Assembly: GCA_003284375.1 (NCBI GenBank)
Contig: QBVL01000017.1
Span: forward strand, 1-34,208
Direction of reading: 5' to 3'
DNA: 34,208 nucleotides
Origin: Prochlorococcus sp. AG-311-J23
GTDB taxonomy: Bacteria > Cyanobacteriota > Cyanobacteriia > PCC-6307 > Cyanobiaceae
Position 1 is the first letter of the stretch. Every line of letters starts with the position of its first letter. Both the position numbers and the translations under genes were made by a program. Of this stretch, positions 3,979 to 27,753 are shown one piece after another. The notes under the pieces were generated by a model, which was not told the DNA's origin, ran no database searches, and saw nothing but the letters and a program-made list of their open reading frames with translations.

Positions 3979-4215
3979 GGTTGGTATAAGTTTAAATTAG
4001 AAAATGAATAGGATAAATTTTTTAATTGTTGCCCTTTGTTTTAGTAGAAAATGTAACCATTTCGGTTAACACTACAAAAAACCATTGTTTTATGTATCAC
4101 TTTGAACATCTTTAAGGGATTGATTCTGTTACTTTGAATACACGTTCAGCTGATTTTAAAGCTGCAGTAAGACTCGAGACATGGAACGGGGTCTTGGGCA
4201 CTACGGGAAAGAGCA

Positions 4216-4758: not shown

Positions 4759-4935
4759 ATGCAAAAATTGTTTAAACCTAAAAGCACGTTGTTGACTTTG
4801 TTTATGTTTCTACCAATTACTCCAAGTATCGCTGCTTTTACTGTTTTTACACAGTCGGTATTAATTGAAAGGAGTACTGAGGTTTCGTCAATTTCTCATC
4901 ATGCAAAGCGAGTAATTAATGCAACTAGAAACTAA
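4759..4935 (+). CDS. Small putative exported protein, 58 aa
   Basis: The N-terminus has a basic start and hydrophobic core (KSTLLTLFMFLPITPSIAAF), giving a plausible signal peptide with cleavage near SIAA-F, residues 24-27. The mature part would be only about 32 residues (SVLIERSTEVSSISHHAKRV, then INATRN). No partner or family is recognised. The ATG is the first in the frame and gives the compact signal sequence. Confidence 0.55.
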   Translation: MQKLFKPKSTLLTLFMFLPITPSIAAFTVFTQSVLIERSTEVSSISHHAKRVINATRN

Positions 4936-5114
4936 TTATTAGCTTTTGCCTTGAGCGACTTACGATATATATTTTATATGAACTTTCTTTTCCTATTAAA
5001 ACTATATAGAAAGTATTATTAACTTTTTTGTTGTATTTAGTTTAAATACTCTTTACGTAATGTGATTAGTAGGTTAAAAGTTGTACGTAATAGCTTATCT
5101 AAAGTTTGGTTTTA

Positions 5115-5375
5115 ATGAAAAAGTTTAAGGCCTTTGATGACTCAATGTTAGAGCTTCATCCTGATTTAAAAGATTTTCTTAAACCTAATGATCTGTATCC
5201 AGAGCTAGAGCATATTCTAAAAAATAGATCTGCTTTTTTACCTGCTGGATCCTTGAATACGAAAGTAATTATTAATAATGGAGAAATTGTTGAACGTGTT
5301 TTTAAAACACCAATGGGCCAAATTGTTTCTTTATTCTCGAAACAATCAAATGTTATTCTTGATCAAGTTGCTTAA
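5115..5375 (+). CDS. Small conserved protein with GEIVERV core, 86 aa
   Basis: Paralog of the protein at 1090-1305. The shared core is PAGSLNTKVIINNGEIVERV, then FKTPMGQIVSLF. The N-terminal part differs and is longer here (MKKFKAFDDSMLELHPDLKD). The ATG at 5115 is preferred over a TTG three codons upstream. Both copies keep the same spacing within the core, which points to a folded beta-rich unit under selection. Function unknown. Confidence 0.75.
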   Translation: MKKFKAFDDSMLELHPDLKDFLKPNDLYPELEHILKNRSAFLPAGSLNTKVIINNGEIVERVFKTPMGQIVSLFSKQSNVILDQVA

Positions 5376-5524
5376 TAAGTGATTCTCTACCTAATATTGT
5401 TTTTTTAGTAGATAGACTCAAGCAATGTAAGATGTAAATATCTTTTATTTATTCGAATCTTTAGACAGCTTGATGTGAAAGCTGCTAGATGACGAATATT
5501 ATTGTTGATTAAGTCAAAAAAATC

Positions 5525-6076
5525 ATGGAGATAAATCAAGCAATTAAAAATCGAAGGACAATTCATATCTTTTCTAAAAAAAGTGTTCCTAGTGAAGTAA
5601 TTGAAAAATCAATAGTTGCAGCTAATCAAGCGCCCTGCCATAGAAGAACTTTTCCATGGCGTTTTACCAACATTGGAATAAAAAAAAGGGAACTTTTATA
5701 TCAACTACAACTTACTTTGAAGTTTGGTGATATGACAGTAGATCAATCTATTTTAAAAAAAATAAGGGACAAAATGCTAAATCCTTCACATTTGCTTATT
5801 GCCACTCAATTATGTACTGATAACCAAGTTCAAAGACTCGAAGATTATGCTGCTTGTGCTTGCGCGATTCAAAATCTGTCACTTTCACTTGTTGCGGATG
5901 ATGTTGGATGCAAGTGGTCAACAGGAAAAATCATTAAGGACATTAATACCTATAAAATTGCGGAAATAGATGCAAATGATGAAGAAATTATTGGTTTTAT
6001 ATGGATTGGGTATGGAACCGAGCCACCTTTAATAAAAAGGCCTTTAATTAGCACTATCTATAGAGAAAGGAAATAA
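5525..6076 (+). CDS. Nitroreductase-family protein
   Basis: 183 residues with the layout of small FMN-dependent NAD(P)H nitroreductases: NRRTIHIF near the N-terminus (9-16; family RRSxRxF, FMN phosphate site), AANQAPCHRRTFPWRF (32-47; family APSxxNxQPWRF), and late AIQNLSLSLVADDVGCKWST (family A-QNL-LAA-GLG--W), then EEIIGFIWIGYG. Members usually reduce nitro groups or quinones or act in related flavin chemistry as dimers. The usual Asn of the APSxxNxQPW motif is replaced (Arg/Thr), so the substrate is uncertain. The gene stands alone, with no obvious operon. Confidence 0.88.
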   Translation: MEINQAIKNRRTIHIFSKKSVPSEVIEKSIVAANQAPCHRRTFPWRFTNIGIKKRELLYQLQLTLKFGDMTVDQSILKKIRDKMLNPSHLLIATQLCTDNQVQRLEDYAACACAIQNLSLSLVADDVGCKWSTGKIIKDINTYKIAEIDANDEEIIGFIWIGYGTEPPLIKRPLISTIYRERK

Positions 6077-16185: not shown

Positions 16186-16773
16186 ATGTCTCAATTAAGT
16201 ATCAAAGTTAGCGCTAAAGGCGAAGCCATGATCGCTACTCTTCAAAAGGAAATCTTTAACAGAAGAAGAAAAAAAGTATCAGCATCACAAGTTGTTGAAA
16301 CTCTTGTAGAGAGTGGTGCTAAATCTCAATCTGATAAGCGTTACGCGGCTTCTTGGAAAAACTTAATTAAGGATATTGAGAAAGCTGCAAAAGTTTCTGA
16401 GGTCCATGGTAATAAGCCTGCAAATGTTAGTGCTGATGAGTGGGCTTTGATTCTTTCTCACCGTACTCGTAAAACTACAAGTGCTAAGAAGGTTTCAGCA
16501 AAACCCTCTGCTAAAAAGACAGCTGTCAAAAAAACTGTAGCTAAAAAAGCAATTGCTAAGAAGGCAGTAAGTAAACCTGCTCCAGCTAAGAGTGCTGCTA
16601 ATGCAAAAGTTAAGACTTCTAAAGTTAAGACAGCAGTCAAGAAAGTAGCTTCTGCTCAGGCAAAAAAGGCAACTTCAAGCGCTAAGTCAGTTTCAAAGGC
16701 AACATCTAAGGCTGTAGCAGGAAGACCTGCAAGGCGTGCAAGAAAAGCAAGTTCTAAAGCCGTCAAAGCTTAG
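16186..16773 (+). CDS. Histone-H1-like DNA-binding protein, copy 1 (195 aa)
   Basis: Two parts. Residues 1-95 form a compact domain (MSQLSIKVSAKGEAMIATLQ; VETLVESGAKSQSDKRYAAS; ADEWALILSHRTRK), nearly identical to copy 2 at 27178-27696 (four conservative changes). From about 100 on is a low-complexity Lys/Ala tail with repeated AKK and VKK units, ending GRPARRARKASSK, like histone H1 or bacterial Hc1 tails with an AT-hook-like GRPARR. A nucleoid or DNA-compaction role is inferred. The tail is longer and differs from copy 2. The 3' structured element starts 6 bases after the stop. Confidence 0.8.
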   Translation: MSQLSIKVSAKGEAMIATLQKEIFNRRRKKVSASQVVETLVESGAKSQSDKRYAASWKNLIKDIEKAAKVSEVHGNKPANVSADEWALILSHRTRKTTSAKKVSAKPSAKKTAVKKTVAKKAIAKKAVSKPAPAKSAANAKVKTSKVKTAVKKVASAQAKKATSSAKSVSKATSKAVAGRPARRARKASSKAVKA

Positions 16774-16779
16774 TCCAAA

Positions 16780-16828
16780 AGCCAGATCCGTCCAAGCGGC
16801 GTGAAAAGTGCAATGCTTTTCTCTGGCT
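16780..16828 (+). ncRNA. Structured 3' element of histone-like gene 1
   Basis: Closing stem AGCCAGA (16780-16786) with TCTGGCT (16822-16828) encloses a small hairpin CCG/CGG (16788-16790 with 16797-16799) and a 6-bp hairpin GAAAAG/CTTTTC (16803-16808 with 16816-16821). The 45-base core 16782-16826 aligns without gaps to the element after copy 2 (34 of 45 identical). Two changes in the second hairpin are compensatory. A short T-run follows, so it may also terminate transcription. No known RNA family is recognised. Confidence 0.7.
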
Positions 16829-16847
16829 ATTTTAGTAATTATGTTTA

Positions 16848-17174
16848 TTAGTAACCCAAGCCTACATTACCTTTTGTGTAGCCTTGGCAGTAGTACTTGG
16901 CATGGTAGTAGTGATTAGTGATATTAGCTTTCTCTCCCTCTAGTCCATCGATTCTTTTCTTCCCTAATTTTAATCCTCTTGCAGCTTCTTCCCCTGTAAT
17001 CAAATCAGCGCTAAGACGTCCGCAAATATCATTAACTTTGAAGTCTTTCGCTGAAGGGCCTCTGACATAGCCAGCAAAAAACGCCAGAAATAATCCAAGG
17101 GTTACAAATCTTCGGTGGTTTCTCCACCATTCATAACTATTCAGATTTAGTTTCTTTTTTAGTTCCATGTTCAT
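16848..17174 (-). CDS. Hypothetical protein with one membrane helix, 108 aa
   Basis: ATG 17174 (another ATG two codons on). MNMELKKKLNLNSYEWWRNH, then helix FVTLGLFLAFFAGYVRG (24-40), then a soluble domain with VNDICGRLSADLITGEEAAR and NHYYHAKYYCQGYTKG. Basic residues before the helix put the C-terminal domain outside the cytoplasm; two Cys there could pair. It converges on histone-like gene 1. Function unknown. Confidence 0.65.
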   Translation of the reverse strand: MNMELKKKLNLNSYEWWRNHRRFVTLGLFLAFFAGYVRGPSAKDFKVNDICGRLSADLITGEEAARGLKLGKKRIDGLEGEKANITNHYYHAKYYCQGYTKGNVGLGY

Positions 17175-17343
17175 TTATATCTAAAGCTTAGTTATACCTT
17201 AGGCTTAAGGACCTTATTTATTGATGAAGCTCTTGAAAGGTAAATATTTTAACTTAATCTCACAGTTAAAGAATTAACCTTTTTACTTTTGTATTGATCA
17301 TAATCACAAAATACGGTCGAATTATCGGTGAATCTTTTTAAGG

Positions 17344-17931
17344 ATGATTGAGAAAATTTCAAAAGATGATTGGCAATATTTTGTGCCCTTTTTGGCTTGC
17401 ACTATTTGTTTCGTTGCAACCGATTTCTTAGGAATAATTGATAAGACATACATTGCCTATTGGTCTGGCCGTTTCTTTTATGAGCCATACAGGATTATTA
17501 CGTCCCATTTCTTTCATGGTGACTTGAATCATTTATTGGCAAATATCTCTGGAATCATCGTAGCTAGATACTTTCTTAAATCTCTAAGCCTTAAAAGTAA
17601 CTATTTCTTTTTAGCTTTTGTTGCATTGATAATGCCTCTCCAAGCATTTATTTGTTGGTGCTTTGATATTTTAGTTTTAGGAGATCCGATGTCTTTAGCC
17701 ATTGGCTTCAGTGGTGTTTTATTTGGTATCGACGCATTTATTTTGATGACTACTTTATATGGAAAGAAAAAATTTCTTTTTATTAGATGCGAATTAAAGA
17801 AAGATCCAAGTTTACTAAAATCTATTTCTTTACTCACAGGCGTTGGAATTATTTGCTCATTCCTCCCTGGAATTAGTCTGTTAGGTCATATGTCTGGACT
17901 TTTGGCAGGACTCCTATTGTTTTGGCTCTAA
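17344..17931 (+). CDS. Rhomboid-family intramembrane serine protease
   Basis: 195 residues, about six membrane helices. Key motifs: HFFHGDLNHLLAN (55-67; family HxxxxxxxN), GFSGVLFG (121-128) with catalytic Ser123 in GxSG, and GHMSGLLAG (181-189) with catalytic His182. The first helix is preceded by a cytosolic start, MIEKISKDDW. The core size is like compact bacterial rhomboids or rhombosortases. Expected to cut membrane-anchored proteins within the bilayer; substrate unknown. No other gene in the same operon is visible. Confidence 0.85.
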   Translation: MIEKISKDDWQYFVPFLACTICFVATDFLGIIDKTYIAYWSGRFFYEPYRIITSHFFHGDLNHLLANISGIIVARYFLKSLSLKSNYFFLAFVALIMPLQAFICWCFDILVLGDPMSLAIGFSGVLFGIDAFILMTTLYGKKKFLFIRCELKKDPSLLKSISLLTGVGIICSFLPGISLLGHMSGLLAGLLLFWL

Positions 17932-18019
17932 ATAATTAATTTGATGTTATTGCTTCTTCAGAAAAAAGTGAACATCTGAATGGTGAAAACTTCTCAACTC
18001 AACTTTAATTGAGTTGCTC

Positions 18020-18280
18020 TCACTTCACTTGATAAACTTTTGACCTTCCATTACATTTGCGTACGGCCCATTCTATTGGGGATTTTAGACTTTCTTGTTC
18101 AACGCAAATAGTTTGATAATTAGCCCATTTAGCTATTGGCCCTAATCTTATTGCAATTAATGCAAGGCTAAATGCACATAAAAATGCGCACAACAGCAGA
18201 GCAATTCCAGTAAATAGATCATTAAACTTGAATTTCATTTCAGTTAAATTGAAATTTTTATTTTTCTTGGTTTCACTCAT
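18020..18280 (-). CDS. Small membrane protein, 86 aa
   Basis: ATG 18280. Charged start MSETKKNKNFNLTEMKFKFN, then helix LFTGIALLLCAFLCAFSLAL (22-41), then a short outer part with two Cys (YQTICVEQESLKSPIEWAVR, KCNGRSKVYQ). It is the most downstream gene of a long minus-strand run of small genes (20310 to 18020). No family recognised. Confidence 0.65.
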   Translation of the reverse strand: MSETKKNKNFNLTEMKFKFNDLFTGIALLLCAFLCAFSLALIAIRLGPIAKWANYQTICVEQESLKSPIEWAVRKCNGRSKVYQVK

Positions 18281-18418
18281 AGAAATAATTGGTTGAAATA
18301 AAATGTCTCAATATTGAAAGGCTTTTATTCTGTTTTCTTTTTAATGGTGGCATAGGGCGTAAAAACTGAATGAATTTTATAGATGTATTTATTGATAGTT
18401 AACAGTTGGTCATTTCTC

Positions 18419-18622
18419 TTAGGTCTCTTCATTTGTCTTTTCACCATTAAACATCCTTTTCTCCCCGATAATGATTGTTAACCATCCAAGTGCTAGAAGC
18501 CATCCAGTTTGATATTCTCCTTTTAGAAAATCAAATAGCGCTAGGGTACTTGCAGATATAGCAAGAGTACGAACTGCAAACCTTCCAAAGGTAATTTTAT
18601 TTTTTTTTATAGGTTTATCCAT
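18419..18622 (-). CDS. Small membrane protein, 67 aa
   Basis: ATG 18622. MDKPIKKNKITFGRFAVRTL, then hydrophobic AISASTLALFDFLKG and GWLLALGWLTIIIGE, so two short helices, and an acidic/basic end KRMFNGEKTNEET. Positive charges are concentrated at the N-terminus. Function unknown. Confidence 0.65.
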   Translation of the reverse strand: MDKPIKKNKITFGRFAVRTLAISASTLALFDFLKGEYQTGWLLALGWLTIIIGEKRMFNGEKTNEET

Positions 18623-18673
18623 ATATCCATTTTGCAGTAACTAACTTCGTAATACAAATTTTGCTTGGATGAG

Positions 18674-18886
18674 TTATTGAAATTTATTCTTTTGAAAACA
18701 TCTTGTTAATAGAATTAAATCTATCACTTCTTCCTTGTCATAAGAAGATTCATCCTCTTCTCTCACACCACTTCCCTCTGTTAAACCTTGTAATTCTAAT
18801 TTCTTCCTAATCAATATTTTTCTTTCTTCACTTGAAAGACTCTTAAGACGTTTTTTTCTCTCTTCAAGACTTTCACCATTTTTCAT
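18674..18886 (-). CDS. Small charged hypothetical protein, 70 aa
   Basis: ATG 18886. Highly charged: MKNGESLEERKKRLKSLSSE, then ERKILIRKKLELQGLTEGSG, then acidic EEDESSYDKEEVIDLILLTR. Likely helical and soluble. It lies 51 bases upstream of the 18622 gene in the same direction. No family recognised. Confidence 0.55.
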   Translation of the reverse strand: MKNGESLEERKKRLKSLSSEERKILIRKKLELQGLTEGSGVREEDESSYDKEEVIDLILLTRCFQKNKFQ

Positions 18887-18945
18887 TGGATTTGGGTGTT
18901 AATAATTTGAGTATTAAGAATGAATTGAAAATTTCTGCTCCTAGT

Positions 18946-19248
18946 TTAATTCATTAAATAATTGTTATCTACAAGTGCATCAATGACTTTTGCTCCTCTT
19001 GATTTCTTACCTAGAGAAAGTTGATTAGCCTTATCCAGTATTGAGGCAAGGCATGTGATCCAACTACTACCTTCACATACTTGAACAGCTTCGCAAATGT
19101 GTTTAGGAGCTTTTTCCGTACAACCTTGATTGCGAGAAAATTTGATAGATTCCAGTTGAGAATCAAGTTCTAATTCGAGCAATGATAACTCGTCTTTACT
19201 AATAGTTTCACCAGACGCATAGCTTTCAATCAAAATTTGATAGTTCAT
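18946..19248 (-). CDS. EGSSWIT-motif small protein, copy 1 (100 aa)
   Basis: One of three paralogs in this window (also 27808-28104 and 31163-31444). Shared pattern: an N-terminal S/D-Y-x-S/D-G/R...L-x-x-x-E/D-L block (MNYQILIESYASGETISKDE), then APKHICEAVQVCEGSSWITC and LASILDKANQLSLGKK, and a C-terminal VIDALV. Copy 3 shares APKHIC and EGSSWIT exactly. Soluble and helical; conserved His, Cys and Trp suggest a folded domain, but the activity is unknown. Confidence 0.75.
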   Translation of the reverse strand: MNYQILIESYASGETISKDELSLLELELDSQLESIKFSRNQGCTEKAPKHICEAVQVCEGSSWITCLASILDKANQLSLGKKSRGAKVIDALVDNNYLMN

Positions 19249-19277
19249 TAATTCAAAAGTTTTATTGATCTTGAAAA

Positions 19278-19469
19278 TTAAGATCGAAAAAGTTTTTCTA
19301 AATTTTGCTTGGCTTTCTCTAGTTCATTTAGTTTTTTGGAGGTTGTTTTTTGCCCCCATTTATCTACTTCTCCAGTTCGACCATTTTGAATGGTCATTCT
19401 TATCCACCAAAATTGAATACTCAAGAAAATTAGTGCAAAAAGAATTAGTTCAATAGTTCCTTGTTTCAT
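19278..19469 (-). CDS. Small membrane protein, 63 aa
   Basis: ATG 19469; a TTG two codons upstream is a weaker start. MKQGTIELILFALIFLSIQF gives one helix (residues 5-25), then WWIRMTIQNGRTGEVDKWGQ and a Lys/Glu-rich coil NELEKAKQNLEKLF. Anchored by one N-terminal helix with a cytosolic coil, by charge pattern. It is 29 bases upstream of copy 1 of the EGSSWIT family. Function unknown. Confidence 0.65.
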   Translation of the reverse strand: MKQGTIELILFALIFLSIQFWWIRMTIQNGRTGEVDKWGQKTTSKKLNELEKAKQNLEKLFRS

Positions 19470-19533
19470 CTCCAACTACATTTTTTATAAATTTAACGTT
19501 TTCCCATAGTCAGGTTGATTTCTCATGTTTTTA

Positions 19534-19653
19534 TTACTCATTAGGATCAATTTCAGTGATTTTAATATTTTAACCAACGTAAAGAAGAATACCTCCAATA
19601 AGTGGAGTCCAAAAACGCCATTGGTTTAAGTCATGTGATTGTAGAAATTCCAT
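19534..19653 (-). pseudogene. Mini membrane protein with an in-frame TAA
   Basis: ATG 19653 lies directly after the stop of the 63-aa gene upstream (TAAATG). It reads MEFLQSHDLNQWRFWTPLIG, then GILLYVG, then TAA at 19570-19572 (codon 28), then NIKITEIDPNE and TAA at 19534-19536. The 27-residue product could be functional by itself (one short helix), but the sensible acidic tail after the stop suggests a former 39-residue protein cut by one base change. Confidence 0.5.
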
Positions 19654-19845
19654 TTATTCTTCGTCTCTTCTAATAGTGATTTGATTTGTTTTATATTCTG
19701 AGATAACTTTATTGGCTATTTCAACAATAAATGAATTTGGACAGTGCAAAGCCTCTTGTAACTCAGCAAACTCGTCGGAAATAAATTCTATACTCCTTGA
19801 GATAATAGCTTGGTGTTCTTTTTTTGGTTCCCAATCTTTAGTCAT
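19654..19845 (-). CDS. Small hypothetical protein, 63 aa
   Basis: ATG 19845. MTKDWEPKKEHQAIISRSIE, then FISDEFAELQEALHCPNSFI, then VEIANKVISEYKTNQITIRR. Soluble and alpha-helical, mixed charge, one Cys. The stop abuts the ATG of the next mini membrane gene, so both are likely translated from one message. Confidence 0.6.
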   Translation of the reverse strand: MTKDWEPKKEHQAIISRSIEFISDEFAELQEALHCPNSFIVEIANKVISEYKTNQITIRRDEE

Positions 19846-20007
19846 TAATTTCCTCAGTAATGATGAGCTATTTCGTTAAGCGTCTTTGAAATATATTTTT
19901 CTGATGCAGTTGTTTTTGCCTTATTTTTTTCATGCGACTTTGACTTGCATCCATGCACTGTCCATAACTTCTAGTTCGTCATTTGTGGAATGCCTTCATC
20001 ACGCACT

Positions 20008-20103
20008 TTAAATATGTGTTAAACCAAACATGATCCCCTTAGAGATTGCCCATCCAATACCGAGACATATAACAACTGTAAAAAGTGTTTTTAAAAGGTC
20101 CAT
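20008..20103 (-). CDS. Mini membrane protein, 31 aa
   Basis: ATG 20103 to TAA 20008. MDLLKTLFTVVICLGIGWAI, then SKGIMFGLTHI: a single helix with a GxGW centre and short ends. It begins 6 bases after the stop of the 66-aa protein upstream, so cotranslation is likely. Size and type resemble small photosystem or cytochrome subunits, but no known subunit matches. Confidence 0.55.
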   Translation of the reverse strand: MDLLKTLFTVVICLGIGWAISKGIMFGLTHI

Positions 20104-20109
20104 GTTCTT

Positions 20110-20310
20110 TTAGTCCCTTCCAAATGCAGTTCTTAAGGCACTAGCAAAATCGAATTGAACCCCATCATTAGATGAACCTAAGTTTTGTATTAACTTTGAA
20201 CTGGCAAATCTTGATTGCGTTGATGAATAAATTGATTGAGACTTTACTTCTGATGATTTTACTGCCGCTGTTCTCTTTGTTGTCGCTTTTGTTGCTGTAG
20301 CTGAGGTCAT
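20110..20310 (-). CDS. Small Ser/Thr/Ala-rich protein, 66 aa
   Basis: ATG 20310. The N-terminus is low complexity (MTSATATKATTKRTAAVKSS), the rest more regular: SIYSSTQSRFASSKLIQNLG, ending FDFASALRTAFGRD. Basic, probably partly disordered, with no membrane helix. It is first in the minus-strand run of small genes. Function unknown. Confidence 0.6.
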   Translation of the reverse strand: MTSATATKATTKRTAAVKSSEVKSQSIYSSTQSRFASSKLIQNLGSSNDGVQFDFASALRTAFGRD

Positions 20311-20373
20311 TAAAAAAAATGTATTTCTTACAACTTAGACATGCTGAGTTAAAAGGCGATAGTTGTTAACTTT

Positions 20374-21291
20374 TTACAATCTTAAAATGAACAACCAAGC
20401 TGGGATTGATATGAGAGCGATGATCGTACTAAAAACAACAAGAGAGGTGGCTTCCTTTTCATCTCTTGAGGCTGCTTGAGATATTAATAGGATAGATATC
20501 GCAGTGGGTGCAGCTGCTTGCAGTACTAAGGCCTCTCGCATGACGCTGGGTAATCTAATGGCAGAGGAAATGATCAACATAATGACTGGCAATCCAACCA
20601 GCTTCATGATTAATGCATTTTTTATGGATATTATTTGAATTTTTATTCTTGAAAGATTGGCTTTCCTTAGCCAACTTAGGCGCATCCCGACGATTACTAG
20701 TGCTAAAACAATTACTACCCTTGAAGGAATCCATAGTAAGTCTGTTATTTGTTTACCCCATGGAGATGAATGAATTATTAATGCGCCAATTAATCCTTTA
20801 ACAGCAGGACTACTAAATAATCCATTTATAACATTCTCCCAATATCTATTAGAACTTAAAACTTTTGAAGGAACAGTTAAAAGTATTGGACCAAGACTCC
20901 AAATCACTAATGTCGCACCAATGTCAAAACCTATGCTGTAAATCAAAGCATGATCGGGAAGCAGTGCCAGTGAAACTGGTATCCCGAAATATCCTGTATT
21001 CCCAAATGCACTACCTAGTTGAAGGGTTCTGTTTGGTACAAGTTTTTTCACACTAGGAAGGCGATTTAATATAGTCATTAAAATACTAATAGCTACCAAT
21101 GCTAATGCAGCTGATTCAATTAAAGGCAATTCTAGTCCAGACTTAAGTAATATCCCAGTCAAACTGATAGGAATACCATAGCTAATAAGTGGACGAGAAA
21201 TTGTTAGAGATAAATTTTCTTTAAATCGTCCGAGTAAATAGCCTATTAAAAGACATGGTATTAATTCAGCTAAAAGAAGGATTATTTCCAA
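20374..21291 (-). CDS. AEC-family (auxin efflux carrier-like) transporter
   Basis: 305 residues, about ten hydrophobic helices. AEC family features: LLGRFKENLSLTISRPLISY near the start, the motif GNTGYFGIPVSLAL (97-110), and late AAPTAISILLISQ. Members export small organic anions or similar solutes across the inner membrane; the substrate is unknown. The start is a TTG at 21291; no ATG gives the first helix, so this is chosen despite the rare codon. It is separated from the small genes downstream by 63 bases. Confidence 0.88.
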   Translation of the reverse strand: MEIILLLAELIPCLLIGYLLGRFKENLSLTISRPLISYGIPISLTGILLKSGLELPLIESAALALVAISILMTILNRLPSVKKLVPNRTLQLGSAFGNTGYFGIPVSLALLPDHALIYSIGFDIGATLVIWSLGPILLTVPSKVLSSNRYWENVINGLFSSPAVKGLIGALIIHSSPWGKQITDLLWIPSRVVIVLALVIVGMRLSWLRKANLSRIKIQIISIKNALIMKLVGLPVIMLIISSAIRLPSVMREALVLQAAAPTAISILLISQAASRDEKEATSLVVFSTIIALISIPAWLFILRL

Positions 21292-21451
21292 CTGAGTAAA
21301 TCAAATAACATTTGTGGTGCTAGTAAGTTAAGAGTTGTTTTATTGATTTCTAAATTATTTTAACTTAGGTTTTTCTTTCTAAGTACAATCAGAGAATTTG
21401 ATATAAAAGTCCTTTACTCTGATTGAGAAATGTTTAATTTGTTTGGTTAGC

Positions 21452-21673
21452 TCATTTCTCCTTATAAATACTTTTTTCTGAACAGCCGAATGTTTCTCCA
21501 AAAAGAATATCTGTGCACATTGCGTTGCATAAAAGATAAACGACCCAACTGGCAACAGGGACTCCAACTATATAGCTAAATGGGTGTTTTACTTTGATGA
21601 ACCCAACAGTGGCAACAGTTAGAACAACAATTAAGTTGATGATTCGTTTAAGGGCTTTTCTTGGTATCTGCAT
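21452..21673 (-). CDS. Small membrane protein, 73 aa
   Basis: ATG 21673. MQIPRKALKRIINLIVVLTV, then ATVGFIKVKHPFSYIVGVPV, then ASWVVYLLCNAMCTDILFGE: a basic start, two helices and a Cys-containing end (CNAMC; GCSEKS). The overlapping frame on the same strand (21379-21567) is less convincing. No family recognised. Confidence 0.6.
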   Translation of the reverse strand: MQIPRKALKRIINLIVVLTVATVGFIKVKHPFSYIVGVPVASWVVYLLCNAMCTDILFGETFGCSEKSIYKEK

Positions 21674-21777
21674 CAGCCATTTCTAGCAGAACTTTTGCTT
21701 TTATATCCAGTTTTTACCACAACTGTTAGTCAGTTGTGTTTGGTTTAGGTATTGTTTACGCATATTAAAAATCTTCG

Positions 21778-22089
21778 ATGTCTTTTACTGTCACCTCAGT
21801 TTTTACTTTTAAGGTTAAAAGCACCTTTGACGAGTGGGCTGCAATTTTCGACAGCAAAGAAGCTACTAGGAGGCATAGAGAGTTTAATATTCAGCCTTTA
21901 TACAGAGGGTGCTGTGATAATGACCCTCAAAAAATCATTGTTATCCATCAGCACCCAGAGGGTAATATTGAGAAATTCTTTGAAGCCAACGGAGATTGGA
22001 TGGCGAGCCACAGAGTTGATTTATCTACAATGGAGAAGTCTGCTTGGACTTGGACTGACAACAGTAGTGTTCAGCTTAAAGCCGCTTGA
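21778..22089 (+). CDS. DUF3764 family protein, 103 aa
   Basis: ATG 21778. SVFTFKVKSTFDEWAAIFDS (7-26), LYRGCCDNDPQKIIVIHQHP, EGNIEKFFEANGDWMASHRV and the end MEKSAWTW fit DUF3764, a small picocyanobacterial family with a dimeric alpha/beta barrel-like (ABM/EthD-like) look. Soluble. No activity is known to me. The broken relative at 6917-7213 shares the layout. A different frame over the same bases (21752-22111) is a shadow. Confidence 0.88.
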   Translation: MSFTVTSVFTFKVKSTFDEWAAIFDSKEATRRHREFNIQPLYRGCCDNDPQKIIVIHQHPEGNIEKFFEANGDWMASHRVDLSTMEKSAWTWTDNSSVQLKAA

Positions 22090-22390
22090 TGATAACAGGC
22101 CTCCTACTTAAGACTTAAATTGATAATATTTTTTTGTTCTCATTTTCAAATTAATTCAAAATTATTAATAGGTGTGCGTACTTAAATCTTCAAGACTACC
22201 TAACTTATTAAAGTTTTCTAAAACTAAAAGTAACTATTTGTTTTGGTTAATAATCTTACTTATTAATAAATTGAAGTTGAATTAAAAATCTCTATGGGAA
22301 ATGATATTATTCCGATAAACAAAAATATGATCGGAAGATTCCATAATATAAGTAGCTGAATAATCTTAAACTTTGTAAATTTATACATAT

Positions 22391-22471
22391 TCAGTAATCA
22401 GTACGATTGAGACCCCATAACTTTCCTTCTTTTGATGCTTTAACAATCGCTTTATAAATATCTAGAGTCAT
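22391..22471 (-). CDS. Possible micro-ORF, 26 aa
   Basis: ATG 22471 to TGA 22391: MTLDIYKAIVKASKEGKLWG, then LNRTDY. Amphipathic helix-like with good composition, but very short and without a clear ribosome site. It could be a fragment of a former gene. Confidence 0.25.
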   Translation of the reverse strand: MTLDIYKAIVKASKEGKLWGLNRTDY

Positions 22472-22599
22472 AACTTTTATAAAACTAAAACAATTTTTCT
22501 AAAGGTAACTATTTACTCACTGACTTTATGTATGGATAAATACAAAACCCATAAAGTAAAAATTATAAAAGTAATTAGTTTTTCTAATAATTAATATGT

Positions 22600-22629
22600 A
22601 AGGACTTCGGTCTTTTTAGGTTTTTTTTG
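22600..22629 (+). terminator. Orphan terminator with UUCG loop
   Basis: AAGGAC (22600-22605), TTCG loop, GTCTTT (22610-22615; one G-U pair), then TTTT and a second T-run at 22621-22628. The C(UUCG)G loop is especially stable. No gene ends nearby on this strand; the closest upstream is DUF3764, 510 bases away. Confidence 0.65.
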
Positions 22630-22796
22630 AAATTATTAGATTTAAAAAGTAGTTTAGGTTAAATTTTTTACCTCTATGTATCAAGATTTTAGTTCGGATA
22701 TGTGTTGAGATTTTATGAGTATTATCATTAACTGATTTTAGATTCGGTTACCTATGCAAAAATTGTTCGGTAGATTTCTTTCGGCAATTTTTGTAC

Positions 22797-23027
22797 ATGT
22801 CTAAAGTTAGTCTACTAAGTTTTAGAAAGATGCCTTCAAGACCTATTACATCCTGCAAAAGATATGCAGTCAGCTATAGAGATTTAGCTAATAAAAGACA
22901 TGAGTTAGGTTTTTATGCAATTGATGCTTTTGAAGCTAAACAGCTAGCAATTGAGTTCAATAAATTTGTTCGTGAGCATCCAAATTCTATTGACAGGATT
23001 TCACTCAGAAATAAAGTCACCGCTTAA
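22797..23027 (+). CDS. Small hypothetical protein, 76 aa
   Basis: ATG 22797 (a TTG lies two codons earlier). Basic start MSKVSLLSFRKMPSRPITSC, then KRYAVSYRDLANKRHELGFY, then AIDAFEAKQLAIEFNKFVRE and HPNSIDRI. The Y-A-V-S-Y ... G-F-Y-A-x-D-A-x-E-A pattern looks like a small beta-beta-alpha unit conserved among marine picocyanobacteria (from memory). Soluble. Function unknown. Confidence 0.7.
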   Translation: MSKVSLLSFRKMPSRPITSCKRYAVSYRDLANKRHELGFYAIDAFEAKQLAIEFNKFVREHPNSIDRISLRNKVTA

Positions 23028-23143
23028 TGTCTTAAGTTTGAGTGACATTTTGCAAATTATTTATAGCTGAAGCGTTTTCCTTGCTGTTCAAATATATATT
23101 TTGAGAAGAAATTACCAAAAGAACGTTGGTAAATTACAAGTAG

Positions 23144-23647
23144 TTATTTACCTTGGGTCCACAGAGCAAGGCCTCCTCCCTTTCCTCTAGCAGATAACCA
23201 TTTGCCATTCGAATCGATAGCTATTAATGCGAAAAAGGGTCTTTTCTTTTGATCCGGCGTCGGTAAAGATCTCTTTAAAATAGTCAATGAAGCTAGTTTT
23301 ATTTGGATGCAATCAAAAGTAAATGGTAATAACGGCTGCTTCCTTTCTAAATTTGCGTATCCACTAAATCTCAGAGTTAGCAATCCAAATTGAATTGCGT
23401 TGGCGATAGAAAATTTCTTTTCTTCTGAATTTTGTGTGTCCTTCCTCAACTCTAGGCTCGCTGAAAGAACCTGTAGCAATGTGCTTGAAATTGAGTCTTC
23501 TTTATCTGATCCCTGCTTCCAAACTGAATTAAATTTCCAAAGTCCTATTAGAGAGTCAAACTCAATTCCACTCCCGTCTACTCTTGCGCTTTTTTCTAAT
23601 TCTTTAAGTTTGTCTAGAGAAGGAAGATTAATTCTATTTTCGTCCAT
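23144..23647 (-). CDS. Conserved hypothetical protein, 167 aa
   Basis: ATG 23647. MDENRINLPSLDKLKELEKS, then LIGLWKFNSVWKQGSDKEDS, ISSTLLQVLSASLELRKDTQ, LLTLRFSGYANLERKQPLLP, and the end SNGKWLSARGKGGGLALWTQ. The G-x-W-x-x-x-S-V-W-K start of the first strand and the late arginine-rich strand recall lipocalin/fibrillin-like proteins of cyanobacteria, but the similarity is weak. No signal peptide. The gene is isolated. Activity unknown. Confidence 0.75.
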   Translation of the reverse strand: MDENRINLPSLDKLKELEKSARVDGSGIEFDSLIGLWKFNSVWKQGSDKEDSISSTLLQVLSASLELRKDTQNSEEKKFSIANAIQFGLLTLRFSGYANLERKQPLLPFTFDCIQIKLASLTILKRSLPTPDQKKRPFFALIAIDSNGKWLSARGKGGGLALWTQGK

Positions 23648-24030
23648 TTTATTTAAATTTATGTTATGTAATTTTAATCAGATATCTTATGTCGAGTGGT
23701 TTTAGCCTTTATTAATATTTCATCCATGAGGAGGTTTGTGTTGATACCAGCGTTAATTGTACATTTATTTATGCATGTGTTTTCCTTCAATATTTAATTT
23801 TCATTTTGTATCTTATGAGACTTTTAAATATTTCAGTCATAATTAGAAATCAATAAGAGCTTGAGTCCATAGTTTTGGTTAAAGAAATTAAAACAAGTAC
23901 ATCACTCTTAACAGTAGGACTAAATTTAATTATGCTTATTCTTTTGCTCTTAGCTATTTAATTCAGATTACTCATGCTATGGACGGTGATTATTCTTTTT
24001 GTTTGAATGGAGTGTTAATAAACTTCCCAA
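23648..24030. other. Gene-poor stretch
   Basis: About 380 bases. A 28-codon frame from TTG 23875 to TAA 23961 (VKEIKTSTSLLTVGLNLIML) encodes a single hydrophobic helix and could be a micro membrane protein, but no ATG or ribosome site supports it. Nothing else is recognised. Confidence 0.45.
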
Positions 24031-24204
24031 ATGACTACCTTTAGAGAAAGAATTAATTCACATCTCCCGATAGTGCTTCAATTGTTAAGCACTGCATCCC
24101 TGGTTGTGATCGCGCTGTCTGCTATCTGTGGATCTCAATCATTGAAGAAATTGTCTTCTGCCCATGAAATGCCTAGTTCTGCAGAAGTTCATCACGATCA
24201 ATGA
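24031..24204 (+). CDS. Small protein with N-terminal helix, 57 aa
   Basis: ATG 24031. MTTFRERINSHLPIVLQLLS, then TASLVVIALSAICGSQSLKK, then a His-rich soluble end with HEMPSSAEVHHDQ. One helix (about 12-32) anchors the protein; Cys33 right after the helix followed by Gly-Ser is reminiscent of a lipobox but not a clean one. The terminator at 24231 closes it. Function unknown. Confidence 0.6.
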   Translation: MTTFRERINSHLPIVLQLLSTASLVVIALSAICGSQSLKKLSSAHEMPSSAEVHHDQ

Positions 24205-24230
24205 TTTATTGACTTTTTAATTCTGTATCT

Positions 24231-24256
24231 AGGGCTCATATAAGCCCTTTCTTTTT
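24231..24256 (+). terminator. Rho-independent terminator after the 24031 gene
   Basis: AGGGCT (24231-24236) pairs with AGCCCT (24243-24248), followed by TTCTTTTT. It lies between two convergent genes. Confidence 0.75.
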
Positions 24257-24265
24257 GTCATGATT

Positions 24266-24904
24266 TCATAGGAAGGATAATTGGTTAACTTTAGGTTTGA
24301 TTGTTGGCTCGGCTGTCCATTCTTCTGGGTCCCATTTCGTCATTAGTGGTTTTAAAGCTTTCAAGTCTTGAACATTTTTTACTGAAGATATCCATTCTTC
24401 TTCAAGTCCTTTTGGAATAATTACTGGCATACGGTTATGAAATTGTTTTACTAAATCATTTGGTTCGGTTGTTAGAACACAACAACTCTCTAGTTCACTG
24501 CCTTCGTTAGACATCCATCTATTCCAGAGTCCACCCAACCAAAAAGTTTGAGAATCTTTTCTACTTATTAGGTGACCTTTTTCTAAAAATCCGCTTGCTG
24601 GTATCAAACATCTCTTATGCCTCCAACTTGCACGAAAAAGTTTCTTTTCTTCGACACTTTCGGATCTAGCATTAAATGGTTTTGGTCTTGTGTTGTTAAA
24701 AGGGTCTTTACTCCACTCAGAAATAAAACCCCAAAGCATTATTGATGTTTGTGTCTTACCTTCATTCTTCAGAACAAGAATTGGAGACCCTGGTCTGATT
24801 AAGTCTTGTGGTTCATATTTTTGTCTCAACCCTCTTGGCATATCTTTTTTTAAAATATCAGGAAGATTTATAAAATCGTTTATTAGTTGGTATCTTCCGC
24901 ACAT
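24266..24904 (-). CDS. SRAP-domain protein (YedK/HMCES family)
   Basis: SRAP proteins crosslink covalently to abasic sites in single-stranded DNA through Cys2 and shield them from cleavage. Visible: MCGRYQLI with Cys2 available after Met removal, PFNARSES (76-83; Asn78), a Glu in PASGFLEKG (Glu108), and FHNRMPVIIP (155-164; His156). Length 212 matches bacterial YedK. It is the downstream partner of the PD-(D/E)XK nuclease gene, 57 bases apart in the same direction, which fits a DNA repair unit. Confidence 0.93.
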   Translation of the reverse strand: MCGRYQLINDFINLPDILKKDMPRGLRQKYEPQDLIRPGSPILVLKNEGKTQTSIMLWGFISEWSKDPFNNTRPKPFNARSESVEEKKLFRASWRHKRCLIPASGFLEKGHLISRKDSQTFWLGGLWNRWMSNEGSELESCCVLTTEPNDLVKQFHNRMPVIIPKGLEEEWISSVKNVQDLKALKPLMTKWDPEEWTAEPTIKPKVNQLSFL

Positions 24905-24961
24905 ACCATTAATCCTTTAGAGGTTTTAAGGTCAGAATCATTTTTTAAATTATTAGCGTTC

Positions 24962-25822
24962 TTAAAATAATGGCAAAGTTCCTTGAGTAATTTCTTTTTG
25001 ACTTGTATTTCCTGAAAATAGAATTTTCGAATATTGATCTGCGTAGGCGCAGTTCTTGCAGGAATGATTTGATTCTGGAATTTCTAACTGATTCATTAGT
25101 TCTACCATTTCATCTAGTCGACTCTCTATCCACTCATTGCTCCATTTGTAGGGAACAAGATATTCATCAAAACGCATGGTCCTATTAAATTCATCTTCAT
25201 CCCTTTTTGCATTACAAACTAGAAAATAAGATGTTGGATGAACACTAAAACCCATCCCCGAGAGTAAGTAAGCATAAAAATCCATTTGAATTTTATAAGC
25301 CTCGTGAAATGGATCCTCTAAATAATCTTTCTTATCAACTCGTCCGTTTTTAGCTTGAGATTTGTAATCCACAATTATTAGTTGCTTTGTAATAGTGTTT
25401 TGCCAAATATCGTCTACGCCTCCAGTTAATATTATTCCTGTATCCTTGTAACGATGCATTAGTCCTCGATTAAGCGAGTTTCTCCAGTTATCTATTTCAG
25501 GGTGATCAAAAGGAACAACATGAGATAGTCCATTAGATGCAAATATTCTGTGTGGAATCTGTTTCTGTCTGCAATAGTCAAATTCTTTTTTGAGTAATAG
25601 GTCAGTTGTTTCATTCAGAGTCCAACCTGGTGTCCCTGGAGGATCGAGACCTCTTACCCTATCAAGATAAAAACACCTCTGACACGTAAGGAAATTTGAG
25701 AATCGACCTCTACTAATTTTGAAATCTTCTTTTTGATTTGGCTCATAGAGAGAGGACTTGCGGCTTCGAAGGCCTGTTGCTTCAATTGGTATTTTTTTGC
25801 TATTCCTTTTGAGATCAATCAT
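24962..25822 (-). CDS. PD-(D/E)XK family nuclease (Cas4/RecB-like)
   Basis: 286 residues. Nuclease core: TGGVDDIW (133-140) with the metal-binding Asp, IIVDYKSQ (149-156) as the D-x-K motif, and IQMDFYAYLL (178-187) as the Q-x-x-x-Y helix of PDDEXK_1 proteins. Four Cys, in CQRCFYL (47-53) and CKNCAY (255-260), flank the core as in iron-sulfur Cas4/AddB-type nucleases, so a 4Fe-4S cluster is plausible. No helicase or CRISPR gene is near, so a stand-alone repair exonuclease is most likely. It precedes the SRAP gene in the same direction. Confidence 0.85.
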   Translation of the reverse strand: MIDLKRNSKKIPIEATGLRSRKSSLYEPNQKEDFKISRGRFSNFLTCQRCFYLDRVRGLDPPGTPGWTLNETTDLLLKKEFDYCRQKQIPHRIFASNGLSHVVPFDHPEIDNWRNSLNRGLMHRYKDTGIILTGGVDDIWQNTITKQLIIVDYKSQAKNGRVDKKDYLEDPFHEAYKIQMDFYAYLLSGMGFSVHPTSYFLVCNAKRDEDEFNRTMRFDEYLVPYKWSNEWIESRLDEMVELMNQLEIPESNHSCKNCAYADQYSKILFSGNTSQKEITQGTLPLF

Positions 25823-26100
25823 TTGGTGCGGGTTTCAAATGTATTTATTCAATAGATTCCTGTTTCCTTCGCTCACTTGTTTTTCTACTACCCGTTAGAA
25901 GATTTAGAACCTTTTTACTCAATTGAGATTGATTTTTCAATTAATCGTTTTTAAATCTTTATAAGCTACCTTTTCTGAATATCTAAGTATGGGCTTCTTT
26001 TGTTTATAACAGATTCGTTCAACCAACAAAAGTTTTCCACAGCATCAAAGTCTCTAAATAACTCCAAGTTCTAAATAAAAAGCATTTCCAATAAAAAAGA
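25823..26100. other. Intergenic region upstream of the nuclease and the RNA candidate
   Basis: AT-rich, no frames of note. It must hold the promoter of the minus-strand nuclease gene and possibly that of the plus-strand RNA candidate; neither can be placed with confidence. Confidence 0.45.
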
Positions 26101-26124
26101 CCCTAGGTATGGTGTCCTACGGGC

Positions 26125-26139
26125 CTGGGTGATGGGGAT
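26125..26139 (+). repeat. 15-base repeat, copy 1
   Basis: CTGGGTGATGGGGAT, repeated exactly at 26270-26284 (145 bases apart). Part of the candidate RNA. Confidence 0.8.
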
Positions 26140-26269
26140 ACTATTTCTAACCCTATTTCTTTAATAAATCAACCCCCCCCCTACAGATGGTGTTCGTTTA
26201 AGCCTGAGGTGAAAGATATGGTGCTTTAATGTTACCTGATCTGATTGATTTGATTATTATTTTTGGAAG

Positions 26270-26284
26270 CTGGGTGATGGGGAT
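26270..26284 (+). repeat. 15-base repeat, copy 2
   Basis: Exact copy of the repeat at 26125-26139; it sits 20 bases before the terminator stem. Confidence 0.8.
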
Positions 26285-26303
26285 CTTTCGGCCACTAATA
26301 TTT

Positions 26304-26328
26304 GCCCTCACGAGATGAGGGCTTTTTT
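26304..26328 (+). terminator. Strong terminator
   Basis: GCCCTC (26304-26309) pairs perfectly with GAGGGC (26317-26322), loop ACGAGAT, then six T. Confidence 0.88.
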
Positions 26329-26472
26329 ATTTATTTTTCTAACGCGCGACTTATCCGTTTAAATTTTTTAATTACCTTTTAACTCTTTGGTATATATATC
26401 GAGTTCGAACCTTTATCTGCATAACTTCCTGTATTGGAGAATACATTTTTAAGAGGTTATAAATTAAATAAC

Positions 26473-26511
26473 TTGACAACACCTAATCATCTTTGCTAGT
26501 ACATGTGTACT
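26473..26511 (+). promoter_or_regulatory. Promoter with LexA (SOS) box
   Basis: TTGACA at 26473-26478 is a consensus -35. The palindrome AGTACATGTGTACT at 26498-26511 matches the cyanobacterial LexA box (AGTAC-N4-GTACT) exactly. It overlaps the -10 region expected 17-18 bases after the -35 (CTAGTA/TAGTAC), so bound LexA would block polymerase. Induction by DNA damage of the gene downstream is inferred. Confidence 0.85.
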
Positions 26512-26605
26512 GCTAAAGGTAAATGACTCCATCTGCTTCCCCGTATGCTGTTTTTAAGGCTGAGGAATGGGTATCTGGCGTAGCGCAACCTATTGGTATT
26601 GGACA

Positions 26606-26890
26606 ATGTCTACGACTCGCTCCGAAGAAACTCGCACCGATCAGATCTTCGATCAAGAAGAACAAGAGTGGAAAATCCATGGGAAAGGCTTACGCAAAAA
26701 AACATGTTCAGCTCGCGTTTGCATGACATGTCATTATTTCAATTATTCCAGCGACAGACATTGCAGAACAATTCTTTCCTGTCATGTTCATCGTCGTTTA
26801 ATTCCTCGTGGAGATCATTTGATTTCACGTTGTCATCTTTGGGTGCGGCAACACGAGAGAGGGATTGGTTGGTGTCCAGAGGTTGCCTGA
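26606..26890 (+). CDS. Cys/His-rich protein under LexA control, 94 aa
   Basis: The frame reads MSTTRSEETRTDQIFDQEEQ, then EWKIHGKGLRKKTCSARVCM, TCHYFNYSSDRHCRTILSCH, VHRRLIPRGDHLISRCHLWV, ending GIGWCPEVA. Five or more Cys and several His suggest a zinc-binding fold. I chose this frame over two overlapping ones because of the regular C-x2-C/H pattern and its tail; a similar protein exists, from memory, in other marine picocyanobacteria. ATG 26567 (13 codons earlier) is an alternative start. The LexA box 95 bases upstream makes it a likely SOS gene. Function unknown. Confidence 0.65.
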   Translation: MSTTRSEETRTDQIFDQEEQEWKIHGKGLRKKTCSARVCMTCHYFNYSSDRHCRTILSCHVHRRLIPRGDHLISRCHLWVRQHERGIGWCPEVA

Positions 26891-27132
26891 AACTCTGACT
26901 TAATTAATTGTCTTTTATGAGTTCCCATGCTTTTTTTATTCCTTTATTATTTTATTGACTAGTAGTTTTTTTGTATTGGTTTTGGGATCTCTCCCGCCTA
27001 CTTAATATAAAATTCTTTTCAATGTCGAAATATTTTCGATTTATTATAATTATTTTCAGCGTGTCACTTTAAGTTGATATTGTTAGATATATGAAACATT
27101 AGTAGTCGAATAACCATTGACTATTGAATTTA

Positions 27133-27177
27133 ATACCCTATATGTGATAGATGTATTAAGAAAGTAATTATTGAGTT
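27133..27177 (+). promoter_or_regulatory. Conserved 5' leader of histone-like gene 2
   Basis: Shares ATACCC, ATGTG-x-TAGATGT and GTAATT with the leader of copy 1 (16140-16185), at nearly the same distance from the ATG. Confidence 0.6.
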
Positions 27178-27696
27178 ATGTCTCAGTTATCCATCAAAGT
27201 TAGTGCTAAAGGTGATGCCTTGATTGCTACCTTGCAAAAGGAGATCTTTAACAGACGTCGTAAAAAAGTCACTGCTTCTCAAGTCGTTGAAACCCTTGTT
27301 GAAAGCGGAGCAAAATCTCAGTCTGATAAGCGTTACGCAGCTTCTTGGAAAAACCTAATTAAAGATATCGAAAAAGCAGCTAAAGTTTCTGAGGTTCATG
27401 GAAATAAGCCAGCAAATATTAGTGCTGATGAATGGGCTTTAATTCTTTCTCATCGCACACGTAAAGGCGCTGCTCCAAAAGCTACTGCAGCTAAAACATC
27501 AACAGTAAAAAAAGCTTCTGCCAAAAAAACAGTTGCTAAAAAGGCTACAGCAAAGAAAGCAGTAGCTAAAAAGCCGGTCGCTAAAAAGGCTGCAGTCAAA
27601 GCTAAAGTTGAGGTTTCTTCGGTTGTGAAACCAAGTGCTGGTAGGCCTGCTAGGCGTGCACGCAAAGCAAGAAAAGCACCTGAAGCTGCTAAATAA
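27178..27696 (+). CDS. Histone-H1-like DNA-binding protein, copy 2 (172 aa)
   Basis: Residues 1-95 (MSQLSIKVSAKGDALIATLQ ... ADEWALILSHRTRK) differ from copy 1 at only four conservative positions, although many codons differ silently, so the domain is under strong purifying selection. The tail is shorter, built of KKTVAKKATAKKAVAKK-type units, and ends GRPARRARKARKAPEAAK. The same inferred role applies: DNA binding through a folded domain plus a basic H1-like tail. The leader and 3' element are also shared, so the whole transcription unit was duplicated or moved as one. Confidence 0.8.
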   Translation: MSQLSIKVSAKGDALIATLQKEIFNRRRKKVTASQVVETLVESGAKSQSDKRYAASWKNLIKDIEKAAKVSEVHGNKPANISADEWALILSHRTRKGAAPKATAAKTSTVKKASAKKTVAKKATAKKAVAKKPVAKKAAVKAKVEVSSVVKPSAGRPARRARKARKAPEAAK

Positions 27697-27703
27697 AGCT
27701 TTT

Positions 27704-27753
27704 CCAGACTCGTCTAGGCGGCATGAGAGGTTCAATGCCTCTCGCTGGTTTTT
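27704..27753 (+). ncRNA. Structured 3' element of histone-like gene 2
   Basis: Closing stem CCAG/CTGG (27704-27707 with 27745-27748), a small TCG/CGG hairpin (27710-27712 with 27719-27721), and a 6-bp hairpin GAGAGG/CCTCTC (27725-27730 with 27738-27743) with loop TTCAATG, then TTTTT. Relative to the copy-1 element, A-T pairs at two stem positions became G-C on both arms. This conserved structure may stabilise or end both messages. Confidence 0.7.

Follow-up and report, generated by a model that had tools for sequence, protein, structure and literature searches.

A predicted tRNA-like junction at gene ends of cyanophages and of Prochlorococcus histone-like genes

Introduction

The mascRNA of MALAT1 is a tRNA-like element 3′ of its message that is cut by tRNA enzymes. 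Here we compare this and other described systems with an RNA element in a contig of Prochlorococcus sp. AG-311-J23 (QBVL01000017.1; the whole stretch of 34,208 nucleotides is hereinafter the window), where two copies stand just 3′ of two histone-like genes and have relatives at gene ends in cyanophages. MALAT1 is a eukaryotic nuclear long non-coding RNA, whereas the present element follows coding genes and its cleavage is only proposed. Like the element, the RNase III sites of phage T7 are structured and lie between genes in T7-like phages, but the element is a tRNA-like junction rather than a long hairpin. With tRNA itself (RF00005) it shares an acceptor plus T stack of about 12 bp, the T-loop G53-U54-K55-C56-R57-A58-N-N-C61, the contacts G18.U55 and G19-C56 and, in most phage copies, A73; unlike tRNA, it has no anticodon arm, variable region or CCA, and it sits in mRNA at a stop codon.

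The 3′ tRNA-like structures of plant RNA viruses are also viral mRNA elements that mimic tRNA, as reviewed in PMC5723415, whereas the present element occurs in DNA phages and bacteria, inside operons and without a CCA terminus. A synthetase identity is unlikely for it, because its stems vary too freely. In the two-piece tmRNA of marine cyanobacteria the tRNA-like domain is likewise reduced, and two pairings are predicted in it (PMC1242208); the element differs in its D-arm-like hairpin of 3-4 bp and in having no tag frame, and the Rfam tmRNA families gave no match at the elements tested.

tRNA-like structures are familiar; it is their fusion to phage stop codons, in a form that host genes also have, that appears new to us. 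Searches of one open-access library, with subscription papers and preprints outside its reach, returned no description of the element, which may be known elsewhere, and the main text of a 2010 candidate-RNA survey that covers cyanophage motifs contains, by word search, neither 'tRNA-like' nor 'T-loop'. A known Rfam motif was also considered and rejected, Rfam 15 having no match at the elements of the window, nine host loci and seven viral loci apart from one chance match (L114, 20.7 bits, E 2.8, against a cut-off of 50). The element is a family of structured RNAs that make tertiary contacts of their own and sit at translation stops, in phages that infect some of the most abundant photosynthetic organisms and in the hosts themselves. 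If the role proposed below is true, cyanophages would possess a defined gene-boundary element, with which one could ask directly whether tRNA-processing enzymes make bacterial mRNA ends. The minimal elbow is in addition a compact natural model of tRNA architecture.

Results

Two window copies of a predicted three-way junction

The window contains two 45-base blocks (16782-16826 and 27704-27748) that align without gaps and are identical at 34 of 45 positions, the first lying 8 bases after the stop codon TAG (16771-16773) and the second 7 bases after TAA (27694-27696). Between their hairpins, GAAAAG/CTTTTC and GAGAGG/CCTCTC, two A-T pairs are exchanged for G-C pairs, with both arms altered. These observations agree with the original prediction, and its claim of a selected RNA structure 3′ of both genes is now strongly supported by covariation above shuffled controls in the host alignment and in the host plus phage alignment. 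Beyond that hairpin we recognize an outer stem (P1), a further hairpin (P2), a T-loop and phage relatives. Together the comparisons show, at the level of sequence, a predicted three-way junction of 45-55 nucleotides (nt) composed of an acceptor-like stem (P1), a T-arm with a canonical T-loop (P3), a small D-arm-like hairpin (P2) and a tRNA-type elbow (contacts 18.55 and 19-56 in tRNA numbering). Both the fold and the family are almost certainly real. The parts of the two copies are as follows.

16780-16828, + strand: tRNA-like element copy 1, from first to last base of P1
16780-16785, + strand: copy 1, P1 5′ strand AGCCAG, an acceptor-like stem with partner CTGGCT at 16823-16828, predicted from P1 covariation
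16788-16799, + strand: copy 1, D-arm-like P2 hairpin CCGT-CCAA-GCGG, with A16795 and G16796 as tRNA positions 18 and 19
16803-16821, + strand: copy 1, P3 (T-arm) GAAAAG/CTTTTC, with T-loop UGCAAUG at 16809-16815
27704-27748, + strand: tRNA-like element copy 2, with a P1 of just 4 bp, CCAG (27704-27707) with CTGG (27745-27748)
27710-27721, + strand: copy 2, P2 hairpin TCG...CGG, with G27717 and G27718 as positions 18 and 19
27725-27743, + strand: copy 2, P3 (T-arm) GAGAGG/CCTCTC, with T-loop UUCAAUG at 27731-27737

In the T-loop of copy 1, C16811 corresponds to position 56, and G16815, at position 60, is able to pair with C16800. Copy 2 has U27732 at position 55 (the G18.U55 class), C27733 at position 56 and G27737 at position 60, the last able to pair with C27722. 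Folding of copy 1 alone in two stretches returned the three-way junction (z −3.11 and −2.75), and single-sequence folding also gave it in five of five other members tried. These two copies are the only ones that the covariance model finds at E ≤ 1 in the window's genome (1.43 Mb, 77% complete).

Covariation of the helices and of the elbow contacts

An alignment of 25 host copies, those of the window included, holds 25 doubly changed cells compared with 8.4 ± 2.4 after shuffling; for 69 host and phage sequences the numbers are 295 and 93 ± 9.3. The covariation score of the larger set is 0.601, against 0.167 for shuffled alignments and at most 0.141 for slid partners, and P1, P2, P3 and one loop pair are formed in 92.6% of cells compared with 69.5% upon shuffling. 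Both-sided changes occur at five of five P1 pairs and at six of seven P3 pairs; the P1 register is off in about a fifth of the 69 rows, which were kept so. P2 is nearly invariant across this set, and P-SSP7 has a flipped CGG/CCG. The 69-sequence alignment (A4) was thinned from 171 sequences and required five of six P3 pairs for entry; window copy 1 was added by hand, since the regular expression used for this alignment misses the A52 class, whose other copies were missed too, and L242, a chance pattern match, was omitted. The alignments also leave out L001, L002, L112 and L113, which duplicate the window, and the chance match L093. A second helix, GGCAU/AUGCC, was rejected: by count its covariation is confined to the pair between the base after P2 and T-loop position 60 (hereinafter J23-60), and the remainder was judged by eye.

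The pattern used for the viral scan fixes much of P2 and positions 18, 19, 55, 56 and 58, and the sets used for the stem-length and stop-codon counts below required most P3 pairs and a P1 of at least 4 bp. P1 in the 69-sequence set, J23-60, positions 73-76 and the stop codon lie outside the pattern. Among 120 aligned matches, the T-loop has G53 in 120, U54 in 120, C56 in 118, A58 in 119 and C61 in 120, a conservation partly built in by the pattern.

Three loop contacts covary: 18.55 (A.G or G.U), 19-56 (G-C or A-U) and J23-60. Across 114 distinct rows, 19-56 is G-C in 110, A-U in 2 and gapped in 2, and 18.55 is A.G in 100, G.U in 10, C.G in 2 and gapped in 2. Because 74 of these rows are viral and match a scan pattern that fixes A18, G19, G55 and C56, the evidence for the elbow rests on the 40 distinct rows outside the pattern, where 19-56 is G-C in 36, A-U in 2 and gapped in 2, and 18.55 is A.G in 26, G.U in 10, C.G in 2 and gapped in 2. 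The 19-56 contact was also tested by viral scans with altered bases at the two positions. The A..U scan gave 11 stretches, six of them real elements (four distinct) with P1 and P3 paired, whereas the mismatched scans gave none (A..C, 0 of 25; G..U, 0 of 6); the G..C scan, with at least 120 stretches, found real elements at 78 of the 80 loci on which the model was run. Two host genomes from a single genus, G090 and G062, have A..U copies as well. The J23-60 pair is standard in 56 of the 69 sequences.

Stop codons inside the phage copies

The degenerate core pattern gave at least 120 stretches in IMG/VR, a lower bound on phage abundance. The model was run on 80 of these loci, while the other 40 entered the array, alignment, phage-similarity, stop-codon and stem-length counts; for one further step 83 sources were picked by hand. 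Two stretches from a second viral pattern, neither of which matched the model, bring the loci to 82, with 128 places in all at E ≤ 0.05. Distinct phage copies number 145-147 across counts, among the matches listed. Several contigs hold two to four copies each, some 170-600 bp apart and with differing stems. Proteins like those of six named cyanophages (E ≤ 1e-8) are encoded by 109 of 122 stored viral loci, the other 13 being mostly short. Among named phages, model R2 finds two strong copies in S-SBP1, two in S-EIV1 (50 of 79 kb searched) and one in S-CBP2, a shortened form in S-CBP42, and weaker matches in P-SSP7 (E 1e-8 and 6e-4) and Syn5 (E 9e-5 and 3e-4).

The phage copies are fused to the ends of open reading frames (ORFs). 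The stop codon of an ORF of at least 30 amino acids (aa) falls within the element's 5′ part in 133 of 147 distinct viral copies, compared with 246 of 2940 random anchors, both strands considered. Usually it is a UGA whose first two bases belong to P1; a second class has a UAA in the P2 loop. At the usual site the TGA ends an ORF of 30 or more aa in 90 of 110 cases, compared with 582 of 4346 TGA taken at random from the strand of the element, and the loop TAA does so in 22 of 64. Annotated gene ends fall inside copies in S-SBP1 (gp02, end 1330; copy 1323-1377), S-EIV1 (end 43496; copy 43449-43503) and S-CBP2 (gene 2, end 1279; copy 1275-1329). Since the phage stop codon lies in the element, termination and folding would be mutually exclusive.

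In phage T7, RNase III sites release messages between genes, and RNase P could act comparably here if 5′ cleavage at P1 freed the downstream messages. The tRNA-like acceptor/T-arm stack would fit such a substrate, as would the copy that precedes the major capsid gene at a short distance in S-SBP1, S-CBP42 (shortened), P-SSP7 and Syn5 (the last two weak matches), and PMC5723415 reports that the RNase P ribozyme of Synechocystis recognizes a viral tRNA-like motif at high salt. In phages, however, this cut would fall ahead of the stop codon and would be expected to yield stopless messages; we consider RNase P cleavage improbable.

The T-arm sequence could also be what is left of a degraded tRNA gene or mark a phage attachment site, and T7-like cyanophages do use tRNA-Leu as attB (PMC8776855). 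Yet P1 and P3 vary across copies and stay paired, and several differing copies occur per contig. PMC8776855 places attP downstream of the integrase gene, whereas the P-SSP7 matches (1000-1050 and 20630-20684) lie away from int (4896-5768). Neither ARAGORN nor RF00005 detected a tRNA gene at the elements of the window and the loci tested, where the anticodon arm is missing, and the tRNAs of L185 and L114 lie elsewhere. Such an origin is extremely improbable.

Two further features of the phage loci were observed. At L227 (9366-10137) and other viral loci, UUGCC often comes immediately after the copy, with a second hairpin such as GCCACACACUGAGUGUGGC behind it. Upstream of the T7-like cyanophage capsid gene, a small ORF ending in ..YRGVxY.. 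runs into the element (regions of L381 19296, L384 20630 and L214 342; P-SSP7 and L214 were read by eye).

Host copies behind a histone-like gene family

The two genes upstream of the window copies are the following.

16186-16773, + strand: gene A, 195 aa, 'histone-like', with a conserved N-terminal domain of about 96 aa and a Lys/Ala-rich tail
27178-27696, + strand: gene B, a 172-aa paralogue of gene A, the first 96 aa being 96% identical to gene A

We collected 112 histone-like genes of this family and inspected their 92 distinct 3′ regions with a simple element rule, a crude one that degenerate copies can escape; in Prochlorococcus the element is present by this rule in 65 of the 92. With model R1, 59 of 201 family genomes have matches at E ≤ 0.05, and 45 places reach E ≤ 1e-7. 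Comparison of coordinates with the gene search and with fetched stretches puts 41 of these 45 just 3′ of a same-strand histone-like gene or fragment, among them a frame-shifted one (G012) and one cut by the contig end (G196). The other four are at contig edges that leave the upstream gene out of view (G109 and G116), after an apparent degraded remnant (G135) and in a genome without such a gene nearby (G188). Searches over more than 40 genomes ran under stricter filters, at the cost of weak matches. The stop codon begins 15-38 nt before P2, outside the element, in 20 of 23 host rows; two of the remaining rows lie at contig edges, and the third is locus L029, described below. That the block is a recent duplicate of a terminator was rejected, as the fold is retained, but the sequence is not, among copies from the 201 family genomes and from phages.

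Across the phylum, 15 of 386 genomes match at E ≤ 0.001: ten in the picocyanobacterial family, one with a strong match elsewhere and four with weak ones. The strong match outside the picocyanobacterial family (L325 1501-1553, + strand; E 1e-12) is in G241, which has 7% contamination. In G090 and G062, two of the ten picocyanobacterial genomes, stop-fused copies follow ORFs of 100-340 aa, and the genes after the element, which by eye we take to resemble DUF932, suggest mobile elements. Locus L144 (1062-1117, − strand) holds a degraded element after an apparent remnant of a histone-like gene end, with no intact gene. GC-rich copies with a canonical GGUUCGA T-arm occur in two picocyanobacterial genomes (L146 1503-1557 and L147 1529-1587).

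A proposed role in mRNA 3′-end formation

The phage copies follow a tRNA-like ruler. In 145 distinct copies, P3 plus P1 measures 12 bp in 86 and 11-13 bp in 142, and in 91 the 3′ strand, counted from C61 through the last base of P1, is 12 nt long. The bases after the stem are A73 in 127, U74 in 143, U75 in 144 and G76 in 107, and C74 is found in none of the 145 phage and none of the 60 host copies. RNase Z cleaves after N73 and is inhibited by C74 (PMC3161902). With A73-U74-U75 and no C74, the phage 3′ flank resembles that of a precursor which RNase Z cleaves.

We propose that the element mimics tRNA in cis, from within the mRNA, and flags the 3′ end of the message for tRNA-processing enzymes, a statement to which, taken whole, we give an even chance. 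After the last ribosome departs, the element would fold and be recognized by tRNA-maturation enzymes, most likely RNase Z, and a cut after the A73-like base would leave a compact 3′ end beside the stop codon that would resist 3′ exonucleases and could receive CCA. Segments of polycistronic phage messages would in this way be separated and stabilized, and in Prochlorococcus the 3′ end of histone-like mRNAs would be formed or protected. The RNase Z step taken singly is a possibility we place somewhat below even; more generally, the ends of these messages may owe their form to enzymes that trim tRNA. More tentative still is the history in which a stop-fused mimic evolved in cyanophages, host tRNA 3′-maturation enzymes (RNase Z and possibly CCA addition) form phage mRNA 3′ ends, and picocyanobacteria reuse the device for histone-like genes.

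The gene-end position, the arrays of differing phage copies and the elbow covariation would also suit a stabilizer or insulator that acts in cis without cutting, its compact fold blocking 3′ exonucleases or separating the translation of neighbours and its elbow serving compactness only. The tRNA-numbered stem length in phages, A73, U74-U75 and the absence of C74 would be left unexplained by such a stabilizer, which we regard as somewhat unlikely.

Several findings weigh against the tRNA mimic processed at its 3′ end. The ruler is looser in hosts, where P3 plus P1 is 11 bp in 26, 12 bp in 4 and 13 bp in 27 of 60 copies (57 within 11-13 bp), and the host flank is less uniform, with U in 58 of 60 at position 75, U in 32 and A in 28 at position 74, and U in 35 and A in 17 at position 73. 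A general U74/U75 rule, sought in 30 trailers of the genome's own tRNAs, was dropped: no clear UU rule emerged, ARAGORN ends seemed inconsistent, and the comparison was left unused. Conservation of P2, the elbow and parts of P3 is partly built in, because the pattern and the set rules demand those parts, and J23-60 mismatches are many in pattern-found phage rows (C.C in 14 of 74). In the window, copy 2 has a P1 of only 4 bp, and neither of two stretches folded alone gave the junction (z −0.64 and −1.87). By the simple rule, 27 of the 92 host 3′ regions lack the element, 15 having a terminator-like hairpin only and 12 neither, so that the element is dispensable for the histone-like gene. One of the 12, from a single lineage, is L029, where the histone-like frame (1501-2058, + strand) crosses the element (2001-2056) and ends at TGA 2056-2058, an arrangement not expected of an element that forms the 3′ end past the stop codon. 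Finally, a loose terminator rule is satisfied as well by 24 of the 65 regions that have the element.

This last count speaks for an ordinary intrinsic terminator, as does a consensus terminator scan, which in window copy 2 flags P3 with its T-rich tail. The rule is, however, failed by the other 41 of the 65 regions; phage copies mostly continue with UUGCC and often a further hairpin, with no U-run; two G090 loci have, behind the element, an apparently separate U-run terminator, GCCGG..CCGGC-TTTTTT; and a terminator has no need of the elbow pair. An ordinary terminator is accordingly a very improbable account of the family. The original prediction had argued from the kept loops that the block is no plain terminator, an argument that the family supports, although copy 2 of the window has a terminator-like score. 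Its more specific suggestion, a regulatory element of a nucleoid-protein pair, is not sustained, as the same fold ends other genes in cyanophages and is missing by rule from the 27 host regions just described. The element seems to serve gene ends in general, with the host histone-like gene family among its users.

Histone-like proteins and other features of the window

Pfam gave no family for the gene A protein at E ≤ 0.001, and gene B has an H1-like NCBIfam match of 21.9 bits, far under the 80-bit cut-off. No solved relatives of the histone-like protein were found by sequence at E ≤ 1. A phage origin of the protein was rejected, a search of 50,697 phage records having returned no match to its 96-aa domain at E ≤ 0.01. 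The gene is multi-copy in many lineages, with up to five matches per genome, sometimes 3-20 kb apart. Within the window's genus, ten of ten genomes listed have two histone-like matches, which in nine are on one contig about 11 kb apart. Elsewhere in the window, positions 4140-4198 (+ strand) match a Glutamine-II riboswitch aptamer at 49.6 bits.

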